Below, piece by piece: positions 34,524 to 59,307 of a stretch of 64,000 nucleotides of DNA (the stretch's first letter is position 1; each line of letters begins with the position of its first letter). This DNA comes from Chloracidobacterium sp. N. GTDB lineage: Bacteria; Acidobacteriota; Blastocatellia; Chloracidobacteriales; Chloracidobacteriaceae. Under the pieces are notes generated by a model that saw nothing but the letters and a program-made list of their open reading frames with translations, was not told the DNA's origin and searched no databases. The translations under genes and the position numbers were made by a program. The stretch lies in assembly GCF_018304765.1 (NCBI RefSeq), contig NZ_CP072642.1, positions 727,501 through 791,500 on the forward strand, given 5' to 3'.

Positions 34524-36758
34524 CTATGGACGACGGTACGCCGCCGGAACCACCGTGACGAGATTCCCACCACGGGTGGTCACCTGGGCCAGGGCGTCAC
34601 GCAGAACGGACACGAATTTATCAAACGGCATGCCCTCAAAGAGCGGCAGGTCGCTTGTGACCGCCACACTCAGCGTTAGAACCCGGTGGGGCGAGGAAGC
34701 GTGCGGAATCCCTTTTTGCTGGATGGCTGCACACAGATGTTCGGCCCGCTCCCGTCCCTGCTCAGCATCCGCATCGGGGATAAGTACCAAAAAGCCTTCA
34801 CCAGGGTCATAGGCCGCCATGCCGCCTGCCGGTGCGAGTTGGGCATCGAAAAGCCCGGCGACGACTTCCAGACATGGCTGGCGAAAAGCGGCCGGATAGG
34901 ACGCAAAGAAGTCGAGCTGTGCCAGACACAGCGTGAGCGGATAACCCTGGCGTGCCGCGCGGTTCCACTCGCGTCCGTGCAGTTTCTGAAATTGCGCCAG
35001 TGTCAGGAGATCGCTCAGCCGTCCGGCACCCGACGGCTCGGCGGCCCGGCTGCCTGTCAGGAGATTCGCCAGCCCGCCTGGCACTTCAAACGACAGCGGT
35101 ATCGCCGGTGGCAGAGGGGCTGCCACCGGAAGCGGCTGTGGTGTGGCCGGCAGAAGGGCGGCATTGGGATCGAGCGAGATTGCTTCCGCCTGCAGTTCGG
35201 CAGCTTTGTCCGCATCACCCCGCGCCTGATACATCTGCGCCAGCACCATGGCTTCGCGCGCGGCATCGGTTTTCCGCCCGGACTCCACGTACAGGTCCTT
35301 GAGCTGGAGGCGCGTTTCCAGAACATCCGGCTGGGCGGCCACCATCCGTTCAACCAGTGTCAACCGCGCCTGCATCAGTTCCGGGTTCTGCACCAGGAGG
35401 CTGTCGAGCAGGGCGATGCTGTATTCGCCCGATGTCGTCTCGGTGCGTTCCACCGACGGCGTTGTTCCGGCCGGTGAGGTTGCCCCGGCCGTCAGGCGGT
35501 CGTAGTAACCGGCAGCCGAGGGTGACTCAAACCCTTCCGGGAAACTCATCGCCGCTGCGGCGGCCGGGTCATCCGCCTTGTGACCGGTCAGGGCTTCGAG
35601 CCGCTGCCGCGCCTTGCGGCTGGGTTGATGCCGGATGGCCTGTTCAAGAGTGCGGATGGCATCGGCCTCACGTCCGGCATCGAGATAGGCCTGGGAAAGC
35701 AGGTCAAGGGTGCTGGCCAGCTTCCGCTTCTCGCCGGACTGCTCATACACCTGGGCCAGGCACTCGATAGTCGGAATGTGATTTGGCTGGCGTTCAAGGA
35801 TACTGCGCAAAATGGCCGTTGCACGTTTTTTCTGTCCGCGGTCAAGAATCAGGTTGAGCAGGCTGCGGATGATGTGAACGGCGCGGTCGAAGGCCTCGCG
35901 TTGGACACAGGCTTCAGCCACTTCCAGCCGGTGCTCGAAACGGCTCTGGTCAATGGCAAACAGGCGGTCGAAGGTGGCTTCGGCCGCGTCGAGTTCTCCT
36001 CCCTGCAGGTAAGCCCGCCCCAGCACCACGGCAAGTTCGAGGTTGTTTGGCGTCTGGCTGATCTGCTGGCGAATGCACTCGTAGCCGAGCAGCGCCTGTC
36101 CGGCGGCAATGCAGGTTTCGGCATAGCCACCCAGGGCGCTCGTGCTGTCGGGACGGATGGAGAGGGCGCGGTCATACGCGCCGAGCGAACCTTCCCAGTC
36201 CTGCTGCCGCCGCAGGGCGGTTCCGGCCGCCAGGAATTGCTCGAAAGCATCCGTGCGCTGGCCGCTGCGCAGGTGGGCTTCCGCCAGTTCGCGCTTGACC
36301 CGCCCATCGCCCGGATCGAGTTTGGCCAGCTCCCGTAGCGCCGAGATGAGCGTTTCCGGGGCGCCGTTCCGGCGGGCGGCCTCGGCCGCGCTCCGGTAGT
36401 CCTGTTTGGCGTCCGCCACCATGCCCTGTTTCCGGTGCAGATTGCCCAGCGCGAGGCTGTACTCTGGCTGGTCCGGCTGCAACCGGATGATCTTCTTGTA
36501 CAGCGCAATGGCCTGGGGCAGTTGCTGCTGGCGGACGTAGTGTTCGGCCACCATGGCAAAGCGCCCGGCGGCTTCCTGTGTCCGGTTGACCCGCTGGTAG
36601 AGGTCGCCCAGGATGTTGGCAATGGTGACATCCTTGGGGTCGGTCCGCGCCACCAGCTCATAGTCTTTGATGGCAGCTTCAAGCTTGCCCTGCTGGGCAT
36701 GCTTTTCTGCCTGCTTGAGGGTTTTTTCACGGTCGAAACTGCGGGAAAAGAAGGCCAT
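34524..36758 (-). CDS. TPR-repeat protein with C-terminal degenerate GGDEF domain
   Basis: 744 residues from the ATG at 36758 (MAFFSRSFDREKTLKQ). Residues about 14-430 are a run of tetratricopeptide-type helix pairs (for example KLEAAIKDYELVARTDPKD, QLPQAIALYKKIIRLQPDQ); more TPR-like helices occur at about 450-540. Residues about 579-744 align by pattern with a diguanylate cyclase domain: LTLCLAQLDFFASY, VLIPDADAEQGRERAEHLCA and IPHASSPHRVLTLSVAV are in the right places. The GG(D/E)EF loop reads YDPGEGF, so catalysis is unlikely and a binding role is more plausible. It is the last gene of the siaC-kinase operon, 22 bp after the kinase. Confidence 0.82.
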   Translation of the reverse strand: MAFFSRSFDREKTLKQAEKHAQQGKLEAAIKDYELVARTDPKDVTIANILGDLYQRVNRTQEAAGRFAMVAEHYVRQQQLPQAIALYKKIIRLQPDQPEYSLALGNLHRKQGMVADAKQDYRSAAEAARRNGAPETLISALRELAKLDPGDGRVKRELAEAHLRSGQRTDAFEQFLAAGTALRRQQDWEGSLGAYDRALSIRPDSTSALGGYAETCIAAGQALLGYECIRQQISQTPNNLELAVVLGRAYLQGGELDAAEATFDRLFAIDQSRFEHRLEVAEACVQREAFDRAVHIIRSLLNLILDRGQKKRATAILRSILERQPNHIPTIECLAQVYEQSGEKRKLASTLDLLSQAYLDAGREADAIRTLEQAIRHQPSRKARQRLEALTGHKADDPAAAAAMSFPEGFESPSAAGYYDRLTAGATSPAGTTPSVERTETTSGEYSIALLDSLLVQNPELMQARLTLVERMVAAQPDVLETRLQLKDLYVESGRKTDAAREAMVLAQMYQARGDADKAAELQAEAISLDPNAALLPATPQPLPVAAPLPPAIPLSFEVPGGLANLLTGSRAAEPSGAGRLSDLLTLAQFQKLHGREWNRAARQGYPLTLCLAQLDFFASYPAAFRQPCLEVVAGLFDAQLAPAGGMAAYDPGEGFLVLIPDADAEQGRERAEHLCAAIQQKGIPHASSPHRVLTLSVAVTSDLPLFEGMPFDKFVSVLRDALAQVTTRGGNLVTVVPAAYRRP

Positions 36759-36780
36759 GGCGGTTTCCGAAGCGGGTGAG

Positions 36781-37974
36781 TCAGTGGTGACTGAGGGGTC
36801 TGAGAAGCCGCACGACTTCCTGTGCGGTCGGGCGTGACGACGGGACTTTGTGCAACATGCGCATGGTGACGGCTTCGAGGATGGGCGGCACATCGGGCGC
36901 AAAACTGGCCAGCGGTGGCGGCACACTCTGCAGGTGCGCCGTCATCAATGCCGCCACATTGCCATTCTGCGCCGTAAAGGGCGGGCGCCCGGCCAGGATT
37001 TCGTAGGTGACAATCCCCAGACTGTAGATGTCGGCCCGTCCATCGTAGGGGAGAAAACTCAGGCGCTCCGGCGGCATGTACTTGGGTGTCCCGACGATAA
37101 GGCCACGGGTCGCTTCCGGGTGGGAGCCATCTTCGGCGGCCATGAGTTTGGCCAGACCGAAGTCGAGCAGTTTGACGACTTCGCCGGTCGGCGGGCGGTG
37201 CAGGAAGATGTTGTCCGGTTTGATGTCGCGGTGAACGATGTGCATGGCGTGGGCTTCGGCCAGAACCGACGCCACCGGAAGGATGATGTCCAGACACCGC
37301 TGGGGGGAGAGCCGCCCCAGCCGCTTGAGTTCCTGTCCCAGCGTCACGCCGTGCAGGAGTTCCATCACCAGGTAGGCAAAACCATTTGAGGAAATGCCGA
37401 AGTCAATGACGTTGACGGCATTGGGGTGCTGGACACGACAGGCTGAAATGCCCTCGCGCTTGAACCGGTCGAGTTCTTCCGGCGTGACGCTGCCGCCCCG
37501 GGGCTGGAGGATTTTGACGGCGACGGTCGTGTTCAGCGCGAGGTGCGTGGCCTCATACACCGCACCATAACCGCCAGCGCCAATTTTGCGTTCGAGGCGG
37601 TAGCGCCCGTCAAGCACCGTGCCCGGCAGGGCTTCCGTGTAGGCTGAAAAAATCGTCTGGGCACGCGCCTGGGATTGCAGGAGCGCTTCCTGGGCGCGGA
37701 TAAGGGCCTGGTTTTTTTCGAGCAGTTCCCGGTTTTTGGCTTCCAGTTCGTGCTGAATGCGCAGCAGGCGGCTCTGGGTGGCATCCCCGATGCCGGTCAT
37801 TTTGACCGCCTGCTTGAGCAGGGCGCGGTACTTCCTGGCCAGTTCCGAAAACTCCCGTTGCCACTCCGCTCCGTTGGGCAGCCCTTCGGCTGCAATTCGC
37901 TCGGCCGTGGCCAGAACAGCGAATTCCGTAGCAAAGACTTCTTCAGCAGCCGTTTTGGGTTTTGGTTCAGCCAT
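36781..37974 (-). CDS. Hanks-type Ser/Thr protein kinase with N-terminal coiled coil
   Basis: 397 residues. Residues about 35-110 form a charged coiled coil starting with EFSELARKYRALLKQAVKMT and GIGDATQ, a linker type often found before output domains of signalling proteins. The kinase domain (about 124-395) has the glycine loop IGAGGYGAVYEA, VAVKIL with the ATP-binding Lys, HRDIKPDN, DFGLAK, GTPKYMPPE and the later DIYSLGIVTYEIL. No membrane helix or PASTA domain is visible, so it is likely cytosolic. It starts 7 bp after siaC, which suggests that SiaC is a substrate. Confidence 0.93.
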   Translation of the reverse strand: MAEPKPKTAAEEVFATEFAVLATAERIAAEGLPNGAEWQREFSELARKYRALLKQAVKMTGIGDATQSRLLRIQHELEAKNRELLEKNQALIRAQEALLQSQARAQTIFSAYTEALPGTVLDGRYRLERKIGAGGYGAVYEATHLALNTTVAVKILQPRGGSVTPEELDRFKREGISACRVQHPNAVNVIDFGISSNGFAYLVMELLHGVTLGQELKRLGRLSPQRCLDIILPVASVLAEAHAMHIVHRDIKPDNIFLHRPPTGEVVKLLDFGLAKLMAAEDGSHPEATRGLIVGTPKYMPPERLSFLPYDGRADIYSLGIVTYEILAGRPPFTAQNGNVAALMTAHLQSVPPPLASFAPDVPPILEAVTMRMLHKVPSSRPTAQEVVRLLRPLSHH

Positions 37975-37981
37975 GCGGCCA

Positions 37982-38362
37982 TCAGGACGGGATCGCTACG
38001 AATTTGAAGGGAATCGAGAAGTCTTCGGCAAACTCTTCGCCGTGCTCTTTCATGTCGTCATCGTCTTCATAGTAGTGCCAGTTCAGGGTGACAGTCCGCC
38101 CGGCTCGGACGGCATGTTCAACCATCTCCAGAATGGTGATGATGCACTTCGATGAGCTGGTGTTGAAATAGTCCAGACGAAAGTTGAATGTAATGGGCGT
38201 GGAAGACTCGATCAGGTAGAGCGACAGCCAGTCCAAAACCGGTTGGTAGAAGTGCATCGCATTTTCTGGGTACGAATCGCCTTCCATATCGAGAACGCCT
38301 GTGGCGGCGTCAAAGGCGATGCGCGGTGTCGCTTTGGCTTTCTCGATGTACAGGTTTTCCAT
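37982..38362 (-). CDS. siaC: SiaC-family regulatory phosphoprotein (DUF1987)
   Basis: 126 residues. In Pseudomonas, SiaC binds and activates the diguanylate cyclase SiaD, and its phosphorylation on Thr68 by SiaB turns this off; the PP2C phosphatase SiaA reverses it. Here the conserved segment DYFNTSSSK puts a Thr exactly at residue 68. Other family signs are ATPRIAFDAATGVLDMEGDSY and NWHYYEDDDDMKEHGEEF. SiaB is not adjacent; a Hanks kinase follows 7 bp later. A TAGACT element (38410-38405) lies 42 bases before the start and may be its -10. Confidence 0.88.
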   Translation of the reverse strand: MENLYIEKAKATPRIAFDAATGVLDMEGDSYPENAMHFYQPVLDWLSLYLIESSTPITFNFRLDYFNTSSSKCIITILEMVEHAVRAGRTVTLNWHYYEDDDDMKEHGEEFAEDFSIPFKFVAIPS

Positions 38363-41586: not shown

Positions 41587-41976
41587 ATGGAAACCAAGCC
41601 GACGATTGAAACCGTTCTTGAACGTCTCTCCGCCATGGAGTCCCGAAGCGCTGCCAGGGAGTCCCAAATCATAAGCCGTCTCGAAGCACTCGAAACGCAG
41701 GTGTCGGGGTTTGGGGCCCGTCTCGATGCTCTGGAAACGCAGGTGTCGGGGTTTGGGGCGCGTCTCGATGCCCTGGAAGTCCGGGTATCGGGAGTTGAAT
41801 CGCGTCTTGATGCCTTGGAAACACAGTTGAAGGAAGGCTTTCAGAAGGTCAACGACGGACTGGAGATAATGAAGTACAAGCTGGAAATCATGACGCAGGA
41901 CATTATGGATGTGCGCGCTGCCATGCGAAAACTTGATCGCCGCATACCAGGAGGGCTTGAACCCTCAGTTGCCTGA
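41587..41976 (+). CDS. Tandem coiled-coil repeat protein, copy 1 (four 14-residue units)
   Basis: 129 residues. After METKPTIETVLERLSAMESR there are four 14-residue units of the type RLDALETQVSGFGA (residues 31-86), then a conserved tail with LEIMTQDIMD(V/M)RA. The repeat length is two heptads and hydrophobic residues fall at unit positions 2, 5, 9 and 12, an ideal a/d spacing for a coiled coil. There is no signal peptide or membrane helix. GGAGG precedes the ATG. It is the first of three adjacent paralogues; function is unknown. Confidence 0.8.
   Translation: METKPTIETVLERLSAMESRSAARESQIISRLEALETQVSGFGARLDALETQVSGFGARLDALEVRVSGVESRLDALETQLKEGFQKVNDGLEIMKYKLEIMTQDIMDVRAAMRKLDRRIPGGLEPSVA
41677..41844 (+). 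repeat. Four 42-bp in-frame tandem repeats
   Basis: Each 42-bp unit encodes 14 residues starting CGTCTCGA(T/A). Units 1 and 2 are nearly identical, units 3 and 4 diverged. Confidence 0.85.
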
Positions 41977-42059
41977 ACCGCCCCACTGTCAGCCGCCACC
42001 GTTACGTGGGTGGGAACGGTGAACAGGGAAATCAAATCTGAACCTGGAGGTGTGCTGCC

Positions 42060-42533
42060 ATGGAAACCAAGCCGACGATTGAAACCATTCTTGAACGTCT
42101 CTCCGCCATGGAGTCCCGAAGCGCTGCCAGGGAGTCCCAAATCATAAGCCGTCTCGAAGCACTCGAAACCCAGGTGTCGTCGTTTGGTACGCGTCTCGAA
42201 GCACTCGAAACCCAGGTGTCGTCGTTTGGGGGGCGTCTCGAAGCACTCGAAACCCAGGTGTCGTCGTTTGGGGGGCGTCTCGAAGCACTCGAAACCCAGG
42301 TGTCGTCGTTTGGGAGGCGTCTCGAAACACTCGAAACCCAGGTGTCGTCGTTTGGGGGGCGTCTCGATGCCCTGGAAACACAGGTGACGGAAGGCTTTCA
42401 GAGAGTCAATAAAACACTGGAGCACATGAAGCACAAGGTGGAAATCATGACGCAGGACATTATGGACATGCGCGCCAGCCTGCGTGCACTTGATCAACGC
42501 ATACCCAGAGCGATTGAACCTTCAGTCGCCTGA
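42060..42533 (+). CDS. Tandem coiled-coil repeat protein, copy 2 (six 14-residue units)
   Basis: 157 residues. The first 30 residues are identical to copy 1 apart from one Val-to-Ile change at residue 10. Six units follow (residues 31-114), five of them nearly identical (RLEALETQVSSFGG type), then the same tail with VEIMTQDIMDMRAS and a C-terminal EPSVA shared with copy 1. Near-identity of the DNA units indicates recent expansion. The 83 bp before its start is a near copy of the segment before copy 3, including GGTGAACA(G/A)GGAAAT and the ribosome site. Confidence 0.8.
   Translation: METKPTIETILERLSAMESRSAARESQIISRLEALETQVSSFGTRLEALETQVSSFGGRLEALETQVSSFGGRLEALETQVSSFGRRLETLETQVSSFGGRLDALETQVTEGFQRVNKTLEHMKHKVEIMTQDIMDMRASLRALDQRIPRAIEPSVA
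42150..42401 (+). repeat. Six 42-bp in-frame tandem repeats
   Basis: Units 1-5 differ by only a few bases; unit 6 (ending VTEGFQ) is diverged and leads into the tail. The array is the longest of the three paralogues. Confidence 0.9.
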
Positions 42534-42616
42534 GCCACCTTGCCGTCAGCCACCAACGTTACGTGGGTGGGAACGGTGAACAAGGAAATAAAATCTGAAC
42601 CCGGAGGTGCGCTCTC

Positions 42617-42910
42617 ATGGAAACCAAGCCGACAATTGAAACTGTCCTTGAACGTCTCTCCGCCATGGAGTCCCGAATCACAAGCCGTCTCGATGCCTTG
42701 GAAACACAGGTGTCGGGTTTTGGCTCCCGTCTCGATGCTTTGGAAGCACAGGTGACGGAAGGCTTCCAGAAGGTCGCTGCCGAACTCAAGCTCATCAACC
42801 GCAAGCTGGAAATCATGACGCAGGACATCATGGACATGCGCGCCCGGGTACGGGATGTCGAACACCGCATGGATGATGTCGAAAACGAAGTCCGGGCGAA
42901 GGCCAGCTAG
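42617..42910 (+). CDS. Tandem coiled-coil repeat protein, copy 3 (two 14-residue units)
   Basis: 97 residues. It shares METKPTIETVLERLSAMESR, lacks the next seven residues found in copies 1 and 2 (one heptad), has two 14-residue units (residues 24-51), then LEIMTQDIMDMRARV and a different, charged C-terminus (VEHRMDDVENEVRAKAS). Differences of whole heptads between copies keep the coiled-coil register. GGAGG precedes the start. Confidence 0.8.
   Translation: METKPTIETVLERLSAMESRITSRLDALETQVSGFGSRLDALEAQVTEGFQKVAAELKLINRKLEIMTQDIMDMRARVRDVEHRMDDVENEVRAKAS
42686..42769 (+). repeat. Two 42-bp in-frame repeats
   Basis: Two units of the same family as in the two upstream genes, with the second ending in EGFQ as in the other copies. 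Confidence 0.8.
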
Positions 42911-57987: not shown

Positions 57988-59307
57988 TCAGCCACCTTCC
58001 GGTGGGGCTGGCAGGGCTTTGATGACGACCACGGTCAGATCATCCCCCAGTGGGGCCGGGCTGGCAAAGGTCCGCGCGGCATCATAGATGGCGCGGGCCA
58101 GTTCCTGGGCCGGCGCTTCCCGCTGGCGCTGGACGGTCTCAAGCAATCTGGCCAGTCCGAATTCCTCCCCGTCCTGTCCGGCTTCGGTCAGGCCGTCCGT
58201 GTAGAGAACGATGATGTCGCCCGGCTGCAGGATGCAGTAGCACTCGATGTACTTCCGATCCTCGAACAGCCCCAGCACCGTGTTGCCACAGGAAAGTTCC
58301 TCGTACGTGCCATCGGCGTGGATAAGCAGCGCCGGATTGTGGCCGGCATCTCCATAGCTGAACCGCCGGCTCGCCGGATCGAGCACTCCGTAAATCGCCG
58401 TGACGTACTGGGAGCTGTCGAGGCTTTCCCAGAGCAGATAGTTGACCTTGCGCAAAATGACCCGGATGGAGAAGTCGTTGCGTACCTGAGCGCGCAGGCA
58501 GGCCCGGAACGTGGCCATGATGAGCGCCGCCGGAACACCTTTGCCGGAGACATCGGCAATGGCAATGCCAAGTTGGTGATTCGGAAACGGGATGAAGTCG
58601 TAATAGTCCCCGCCCACGGCTTCGTTGGGAACGGTCAGCCCGGCAATGTCAAAACCTTCCACGGTTGGCGCGCGGTCCGGCAGCAGGCTGCGTTGCACCT
58701 GGCGTGCAATGGTCAGTTCGCTTTCCAGACGGCGTTTTTCCAACCGTTCCTGGTGCAGAATGGCTTTCTCGATGGAAATGGCTGCGGCCGAGGCAAACAG
58801 GGTCAGCACTTCCAGGTCGGCGGCCTTGTAGGCATCCAGGGTGCGGCTTTCAAGATTGAGCGCGCCGATGATGCGGTTGTTGGCAATGATGGGGACGACA
58901 ATTTCCGACATCGTCAGCGGGTCGGAACTGATGTAGCGCTGATCGTTGCGGACATCGGGAATGACAATCGCCCCACCCGACTGCACCACCCACCCGACAA
59001 AGCCTTCCCCAAGGCGCAGCAGGCGTTCCATGGAAGCCTCATCGTAGCCACGATAGACCGTGGCCCGGATGCGGCGGTCGCGGCCGTTGGTTTCCAGAAC
59101 GTAAATGGCGGCGGCATCGTAGGGTACGAACGACTTGACCGAATCAATGATGAGTGACAGGGTTTCGTCCAGGTCGAGCGACCGGCTGATCGTGCGGGTG
59201 ATGTCCAGCAGTAGCCGGAATTTGGTCTCGAAAGACAGGGCTTCCGGCGAAGTTGCCGAGGCCGTCGCCGAAGGCGCCGGGTCTGAATCCGTGGAGAGTG
59301 CAGGCAT
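57988..59307 (-). CDS. GAF-domain PP2C phosphatase (RsbU/SpoIIE type)
   Basis: 439 residues: a Ser/Ala-rich leader, a GAF sensor domain (about 25-190) and a PPM/SpoIIE phosphatase domain (about 215-430). Metal-binding motifs are AVGGDYYDF, IADVSGKGVPAAL, GDAGHNPAL, YTDGLTEA and the final LGDDLTVVVI. Such enzymes dephosphorylate anti-sigma antagonists or SiaC-type proteins. No anti-sigma pair is adjacent; the siaC operon is 20 kb away. It diverges from a histidine kinase gene across 244 bp. Confidence 0.93.
   Translation of the reverse strand: MPALSTDSDPAPSATASATSPEALSFETKFRLLLDITRTISRSLDLDETLSLIIDSVKSFVPYDAAAIYVLETNGRDRRIRATVYRGYDEASMERLLRLGEGFVGWVVQSGGAIVIPDVRNDQRYISSDPLTMSEIVVPIIANNRIIGALNLESRTLDAYKAADLEVLTLFASAAAISIEKAILHQERLEKRRLESELTIARQVQRSLLPDRAPTVEGFDIAGLTVPNEAVGGDYYDFIPFPNHQLGIAIADVSGKGVPAALIMATFRACLRAQVRNDFSIRVILRKVNYLLWESLDSSQYVTAIYGVLDPASRRFSYGDAGHNPALLIHADGTYEELSCGNTVLGLFEDRKYIECYCILQPGDIIVLYTDGLTEAGQDGEEFGLARLLETVQRQREAPAQELARAIYDAARTFASPAPLGDDLTVVVIKALPAPPEGG

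Follow-up and report, generated by a model that had tools for sequence, protein, structure and literature searches.

The stretch of DNA analysed here (hereafter the window) comprises 64 kb of the Chloracidobacterium sp. N genome (contig NZ_CP072642.1, positions 727,501 to 791,500). Its minus strand carries three co-directional genes: siaC1, which codes for a DUF1987 protein, a gene for a Hanks-type Ser/Thr kinase and a gene for a tetratricopeptide repeat (TPR) protein ending in a degenerate GGDEF domain (Table 1). In Pseudomonas, SiaC switches on one diguanylate cyclase, the enzyme making a biofilm signal, and no other role is known for it. Our analysis favours, with a probability of about 0.75, a partner switch of the Sia type with the Hanks kinase as its output; unphosphorylated SiaC would dock on this kinase and probably activate it. 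Computed here were the gene set, the stalk domain of the kinase, its motif, the co-occurrence with SiaC and SiaB, and the intact kinase residues; SiaC-kinase binding, its activating direction, its stoichiometry and the kinase substrates are what we infer. An earlier reading of the same sequence (the original prediction) had described a co-directional trio with gaps of 7 bp (siaC/kinase) and 22 bp (kinase/TPR gene) and had proposed a variant of the Sia switch. The coordinates bore out the former, and the latter was sustained by Thr68 in SiaC, by SiaB in the genome and by a stalk-bearing candidate target.

SiaC1 exceeded the Pfam cut-off for SiaC and fell below that of the NCBIfam SiaC equivalog (124 bits for a cut-off of 150). 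It aligned with P. aeruginosa SiaC (PDB 6k4f and 6kko) at 41% identity, with no gaps and in the same numbering, so that the threonine originally predicted at residue 68 was recovered. This residue lies in YFNTSSSK, of which the NTSS motif was invariant across all SiaC proteins compared, and 8 of the 14 named SiaC contact residues were identical in SiaC1, including Y65, N67, T68, S69, E110 and D114. SiaC1 is not the only SiaC of this genome, which consists of two contigs of 2.64 and 1.08 Mb and holds two such proteins together with one SiaB-type DUF6272 protein, the latter exceeding the cut-off of the SiaB subfamily. The window lies on one contig and a second Sia cluster (C2, L004:7049-10042) on the other, comprising siaC2, whose product is 56% identical to SiaC1, a SiaD-like GGDEF protein, siaB and a stalk-bearing HisKA/HATPase histidine kinase. 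A SiaB/SiaD pair elsewhere in the genome, which the original prediction had itself named as a point against it, was thus present, although accompanied by a SiaC paralogue other than SiaC1.

The kinase displayed VAVK, HRDIKPDN and DFG motifs, and its catalytic residues were invariant in the 8 orthologues; its best NCBIfam match was PknB_PASTA_kin, below the cut-off of that model. The kinase assignment of the original prediction was therefore retained, but what had been described as a coiled-coil leader proved to be more specific: its N-terminal 90-100 residues or so form a conserved domain, called stalk hereafter. In blastp comparisons, this region was related to the N-terminal part of two C2 proteins, the histidine kinase (46% over 91 aa, 1e-25) and the SiaD-like GGDEF protein (43% over 54 aa, 1e-11). 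A profile built from these three proteins and run against the whole genome matched strongly only the Hanks kinase, the C2 cyclase and the C2 histidine kinase (5.6e-51 or better), the next match (2e-4) being confined to the heptad end. A generic coiled coil behind this similarity was rejected, given only three strong matches in the genome and an Asp/Gln motif kept across phyla. The same genome thus carries the stalk on three different outputs, namely a Hanks kinase, a GGDEF cyclase and a histidine kinase.

Among 27 aligned stalks, which came from several phyla and bore several kinds of output, one Asp (D64 of the kinase) was invariant and one Gln (Q67) near-invariant; these residues correspond to D83 and Q86 of SiaD. 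When the 27-row profile was compared with the whole PDB, it gave a single significant match, SiaD in the SiaC-SiaD complex 7e6g (5.7e-6), with an alignment spanning both SiaC-binding motifs. The Azospirillum stalk matched the NCBIfam SiaD model at 1.3e-11. In the SiaC-SiaD complex, SiaC grips the helical stalk of SiaD and not its GGDEF domain; Thr68 of SiaC inserts between the SiaD stalks and bonds to Ser82 and Gln86, while its neighbours bond to Gln86 and Asp83 (PDB 7E6G; PMC8457831). Judged from these profile matches, the N-terminus of the kinase is the counterpart of the SiaD stalk to which SiaC binds.

Conservation of the neighbourhood in relatives had been set beforehand as a test, and the siaC/stalk-kinase pair was found in 8 genomes and four genera of the family: the window genome and G001, G004, G005 and G006 from the same genus, and G007, G008 and G009 from three other genera. 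Within Chloracidobacterium the whole stretch from kynU to ilvE is syntenic, as would be expected if the adjacency of siaC1 and the kinase gene were mere synteny of close relatives devoid of any functional link. We give hardly any credit to this explanation, since the pair is kept in the three other genera, with different flanks in two of them, where siaB and a PP2C phosphatase gene are added, and since the stalk motif beside siaC is conserved across phyla. In those two genera (G008 and G009), siaB, siaC and the stalk-kinase gene are consecutive and are followed by an FHA-GAF-SpoIIE (PP2C) phosphatase gene, whose product in G008 has SiaA as best NCBIfam match (3.4e-61). Each of these two genomes holds one SiaC and one SiaB; a stalk-GGDEF protein was found in neither, and apart from the Hanks kinase the stalk is borne by histidine kinases there. 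In G007, a REC-SpoIIE (PP2C) phosphatase gene precedes the siaC/stalk-kinase pair. From this order and from the lack of a stalk-GGDEF protein in G008 and G009, the kinase, which co-occurs with SiaB, stands in the SiaD slot. At the level of the family, SiaB, SiaC and stalks occurred together in nine of the ten genomes, and all three were absent from the tenth (G002, 99% complete).

These observations also bear on the roles assigned by the original prediction, according to which the Hanks kinase replaces SiaB in phosphorylating Thr68 of SiaC, with the TPR/GGDEF-like protein as target of SiaC. The closeness of the siaC and kinase genes and the intact kinase domain are in its favour, and feedback phosphorylation of SiaC by a stalk-docked kinase is conceivable. 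Yet we consider this arrangement very unlikely. A DUF6272 SiaB is present in the genome, encoded by a separate gene, and the kinase (PF00069) is devoid of the DUF6272/SiaB fold. In two genera, siaB even lies directly upstream of siaC and of the same kinase. The stalk of the kinase is moreover of the target type, since cyclases, phosphatases and histidine kinases carry it as well, and Thr68 of docked SiaC sits between the stalks (PMC8457831). SiaB presence and operon order led us to reject the kinase as a SiaB substitute, and the lack of a stalk in the TPR protein argues against the second role (see below).

In the SiaC tree, kinase-linked and cyclase-linked paralogues of the genus and G007 formed separate clades (supports 98/96 and 97/98), a split that would be expected if each had its dedicated partner. 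The SiaC proteins of G008 and G009, one per genome, fell in neither clade, so that the kinase/SiaC pairing looks older than the SiaC duplication, although deeper forks of this tree were weakly supported.

In the proposed switch, SiaB, encoded in the C2 cluster here and directly upstream of siaC in G008 and G009, would phosphorylate Thr68 of SiaC1, and a SiaA-like PP2C phosphatase would remove this phosphate. Unphosphorylated SiaC would then place Thr68 between paired kinase stalks at the Asp/Gln motif and stabilise a parallel kinase dimer, as with SiaD. Dimerisation is a common way of activating Hanks kinases and would most likely turn the kinase domains on. The active kinase would autophosphorylate and modify local substrates, of which the TPR/degenerate-GGDEF protein and, in related genera, the FHA-PP2C phosphatase are plausible candidates. 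Alternatively, SiaC might dock on the stalk but inhibit or merely position the kinase, which would be freed once SiaB phosphorylates SiaC. The docking evidence is the same for both versions, and the sign of regulation is unreadable from sequence. An inhibitory or positioning role nevertheless seems unlikely to us, both on account of the general behaviour of Hanks kinases and because SiaC docking was activating, through dimer stabilisation, in the sole case measured, that of SiaD (PMC8457831).

Several observations weigh against the proposed switch. Its least certain step is the direction of control, which we infer by carrying it over from SiaD. At the level of the stalk, the family-only profile (A3) and a profile devoid of Azospirillum and GGDEF-bearing rows (A10) both ranked 7e6g first, though without significance (E-values of 0.76 and 0.23, respectively), and homology between the kinase stalk and Pseudomonas SiaD is therefore stated as transitive; a three-row profile (A1) returned nothing useful from the PDB. 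The position of SiaD Ser82 is occupied by Gly in the kinase stalk, as in histidine-kinase stalks, the Ser being retained in SiaD-like stalks of the genus. Six of the 14 named contact residues differ in SiaC1, and the quality of the AlphaFold2 model of the kinase monomer was insufficient for use (predicted local distance difference test, pLDDT, of 56). Finally, neither siaB nor any SiaA adjoins siaC1 in the window genome: none of its approximately 20 SpoIIE phosphatases (3.7 Mb) is adjacent to this gene, and a SiaA orthologue was not distinguishable among them. One of these phosphatases, of the GAF-SpoIIE type, is encoded in the window itself (57988-59307, minus strand).

The third gene of the locus codes for a protein matching many Pfam TPR families, with a weak GGDEF match at its C-terminal end, where the model adopts a GGDEF fold and finds the WspR GGDEF domain as best Foldseek match (Table 1). 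The GG[DE]EF signature itself is missing and reads DPGEGF; it is likewise degenerate in all five orthologues (DPNEGF, DPSAGF, DPNSGF or VGNSEF). The earlier description of this protein as a scaffold rather than a cyclase holds only as far as this degeneracy goes. Its role as SiaC target was rejected, because the stalk profile found no stalk in it and SiaC binds the stalk, and not the GGDEF domain, in 7E6G (PMC8457831). The protein appears tied to the kinase and not to SiaC, since its gene lies 3' of the kinase gene throughout the genus wherever the kinase is intact, since the G009 orthologue (30% over 785 columns) is encoded two genes downstream of the kinase, and since it is eroded together with a broken stalk-kinase frame in G003, where siaC is intact (L147, the same record as L060; a single metagenome-assembled genome). 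A partner or substrate of the kinase is thus the more likely role suggested by gene order. In G005, a two-contig genome, a break near codon 505 divides the TPR/GGDEF-like gene (L140:5081-7311) into two frames and reflects either a real frameshift or a sequencing error.

The distribution of the stalk outside the family was examined by searches using the stalk alone in samples of 396 Acidobacteriota genomes, 296 genomes from the phylum to which a Leptospiraceae genome belongs and 398 from that of Azospirillum, of which 10, 13 and 50 displayed it, respectively. Of 73 distinct stalk loci examined, found without recourse to siaC, 48 had a same-strand siaC within 1.5 kb, against almost none for a random gene. 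The domains borne by the stalk were diverse: GGDEF, HisKA and LytS-type histidine kinases, hybrid histidine kinases, class III nucleotidyl cyclases, SpoIIE PP2C (L213, L217), HD_5 with or without GAF (L222, L226), a hydrophobic anchor and the Hanks kinase. The stalk-Hanks fusion was met only in Chloracidobacteriaceae; none of the other loci inspected in the samples of Acidobacteriota, Spirochaetota and Pseudomonadota showed it, and these samples do not cover Myxococcota and Planctomycetota, two phyla rich in Hanks kinases.

Two kinds of stalk proteins deserve separate mention. At L213 and L217, in the phylum of the Leptospiraceae genome, the stalk is fused to a SpoIIE PP2C phosphatase and adjoins siaC, so the Sia switch may command a phosphatase there. 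In Bacteroidota, short stalk proteins with a terminal hydrophobic segment are encoded directly after siaC (L084, L085, L107 and L120) and form a possible membrane anchor for SiaC; most sampled Bacteroidota with siaC showed no stalk protein.

Taken across at least five phyla, these architectures make it fairly probable that the stalk is a general domain, hitherto unnamed, that serves as receiver of the SiaC (DUF1987) threonine phosphoswitch and is carried by many outputs including membrane anchors, and that SiaA/B/C would be a broad signalling currency, not a biofilm circuit specific to cyclic di-GMP. The Sia switch thus appears as a general plug-in used by many bacteria with very different outputs. 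A practical prediction follows for bacterial DUF1987 and DUF6272 genes, which are poorly annotated: a neighbouring gene whose product has a stalk of the form K[IL]T-x-x-[SG]D-x-x-Q would be their partner. In the open-licence literature searched, neither a SiaABCD system with an output other than a diguanylate cyclase nor a general docking domain was described, though subscription work may exist; the one paper naming DUF1987 goes no further than to suggest, in general terms, a modulating effect of such proteins on adjacent ones.

Compared with P. aeruginosa SiaABCD (PDB 7E6G; PMC8457831, PMC7647112), the present system shares Thr68 of SiaC, SiaB in the genome, gene adjacency, a SiaA-like PP2C phosphatase beside siaC in related genera, and a target with an N-terminal helical stalk and a [SG]-D-x-x-Q motif. 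It differs by its candidate output, a Hanks Ser/Thr kinase instead of a GGDEF cyclase, by siaB lying on another replicon with a second siaC, and by a stalk that appears to have one clear motif where SiaD has two, with Gly instead of Ser82. At this locus the switch would thus probably drive the phosphorylation of proteins, apparently by commanding a kinase of eukaryotic type, so that one threonine phosphoswitch would feed another Ser/Thr kinase. The C2 cluster of the same genome displays a homologous stalk with the same motif, but its outputs are an intact GGDEF and a HisKA/HATPase protein, linked to siaC2. STAS-type switches (HsbA-HsbD, BgrV-BgrR and the Rsb systems) likewise use a kinase/phosphatase pair to set the phosphorylation of a small, STAS-like and target-activating protein, and SiaC is structurally related to STAS (PMC8457831); DUF1987 is not STAS, however, and docking on a helical stalk and a Hanks kinase as target are further differences. 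Dimerisation-activated Hanks kinases of the PknB type belong to the same catalytic family, but the 397-residue kinase described here has no PASTA repeats and would receive its input from a phosphoswitch protein of the cytosol, not from an extracellular ligand.

Table 1. Features of the siaC1 locus, in window coordinates.
Feature	Position	Strand	Evidence
siaC1 (DUF1987/PF09345), switch protein, 126 aa	37982..38362	-	Pfam SiaC 8.7e-45; alignment with P. aeruginosa SiaC; orthologue beside stalk-kinase in 8 family genomes
Thr68 codon of siaC1 (residue phosphorylated in Pseudomonas SiaC)	38159..38161	-	NTSS motif invariant
Hanks-type Ser/Thr kinase with N-terminal putative SiaC-docking stalk, 397 aa; proposed SiaC-controlled output	36781..37974	-	Pkinase 5e-48; catalytic residues invariant, 8 orthologues
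Stalk domain of kinase (residues 5-93), predicted helical	37696..37962	-	Profile A6 1.2e-31; related to SiaD stalk of PDB 7e6g
Predicted docking motif KMTGIGDATQ (kinase residues 58-67)	37774..37803	-	Aligned to SiaD K77..S82-D83-x-x-Q86; register from 7e6g, contacts from PMC8457831
Ser/Thr kinase catalytic domain (residues 125-388)	36811..37602	-	Pfam Pkinase; HRDIKPDN and DFG intact
TPR protein with C-terminal degenerate GGDEF domain, 744 aa	34524..36758	-	TPR families; GGDEF 2e-4; G009 orthologue; eroded in G003; no stalk
Degenerate GGDEF domain of TPR protein	34527..34970	-	Model pLDDT 86; Foldseek to WspR GGDEF 1.4e-9; GG[DE]EF replaced in all 5 orthologues

Elsewhere in the window (41587-42910, plus strand), three adjacent paralogous coiled-coil open reading frames were observed, which start with METKPTIET and differ in the copy number of LEALETQVSSFGGR-type repeats; relatives carry divergent versions of them.

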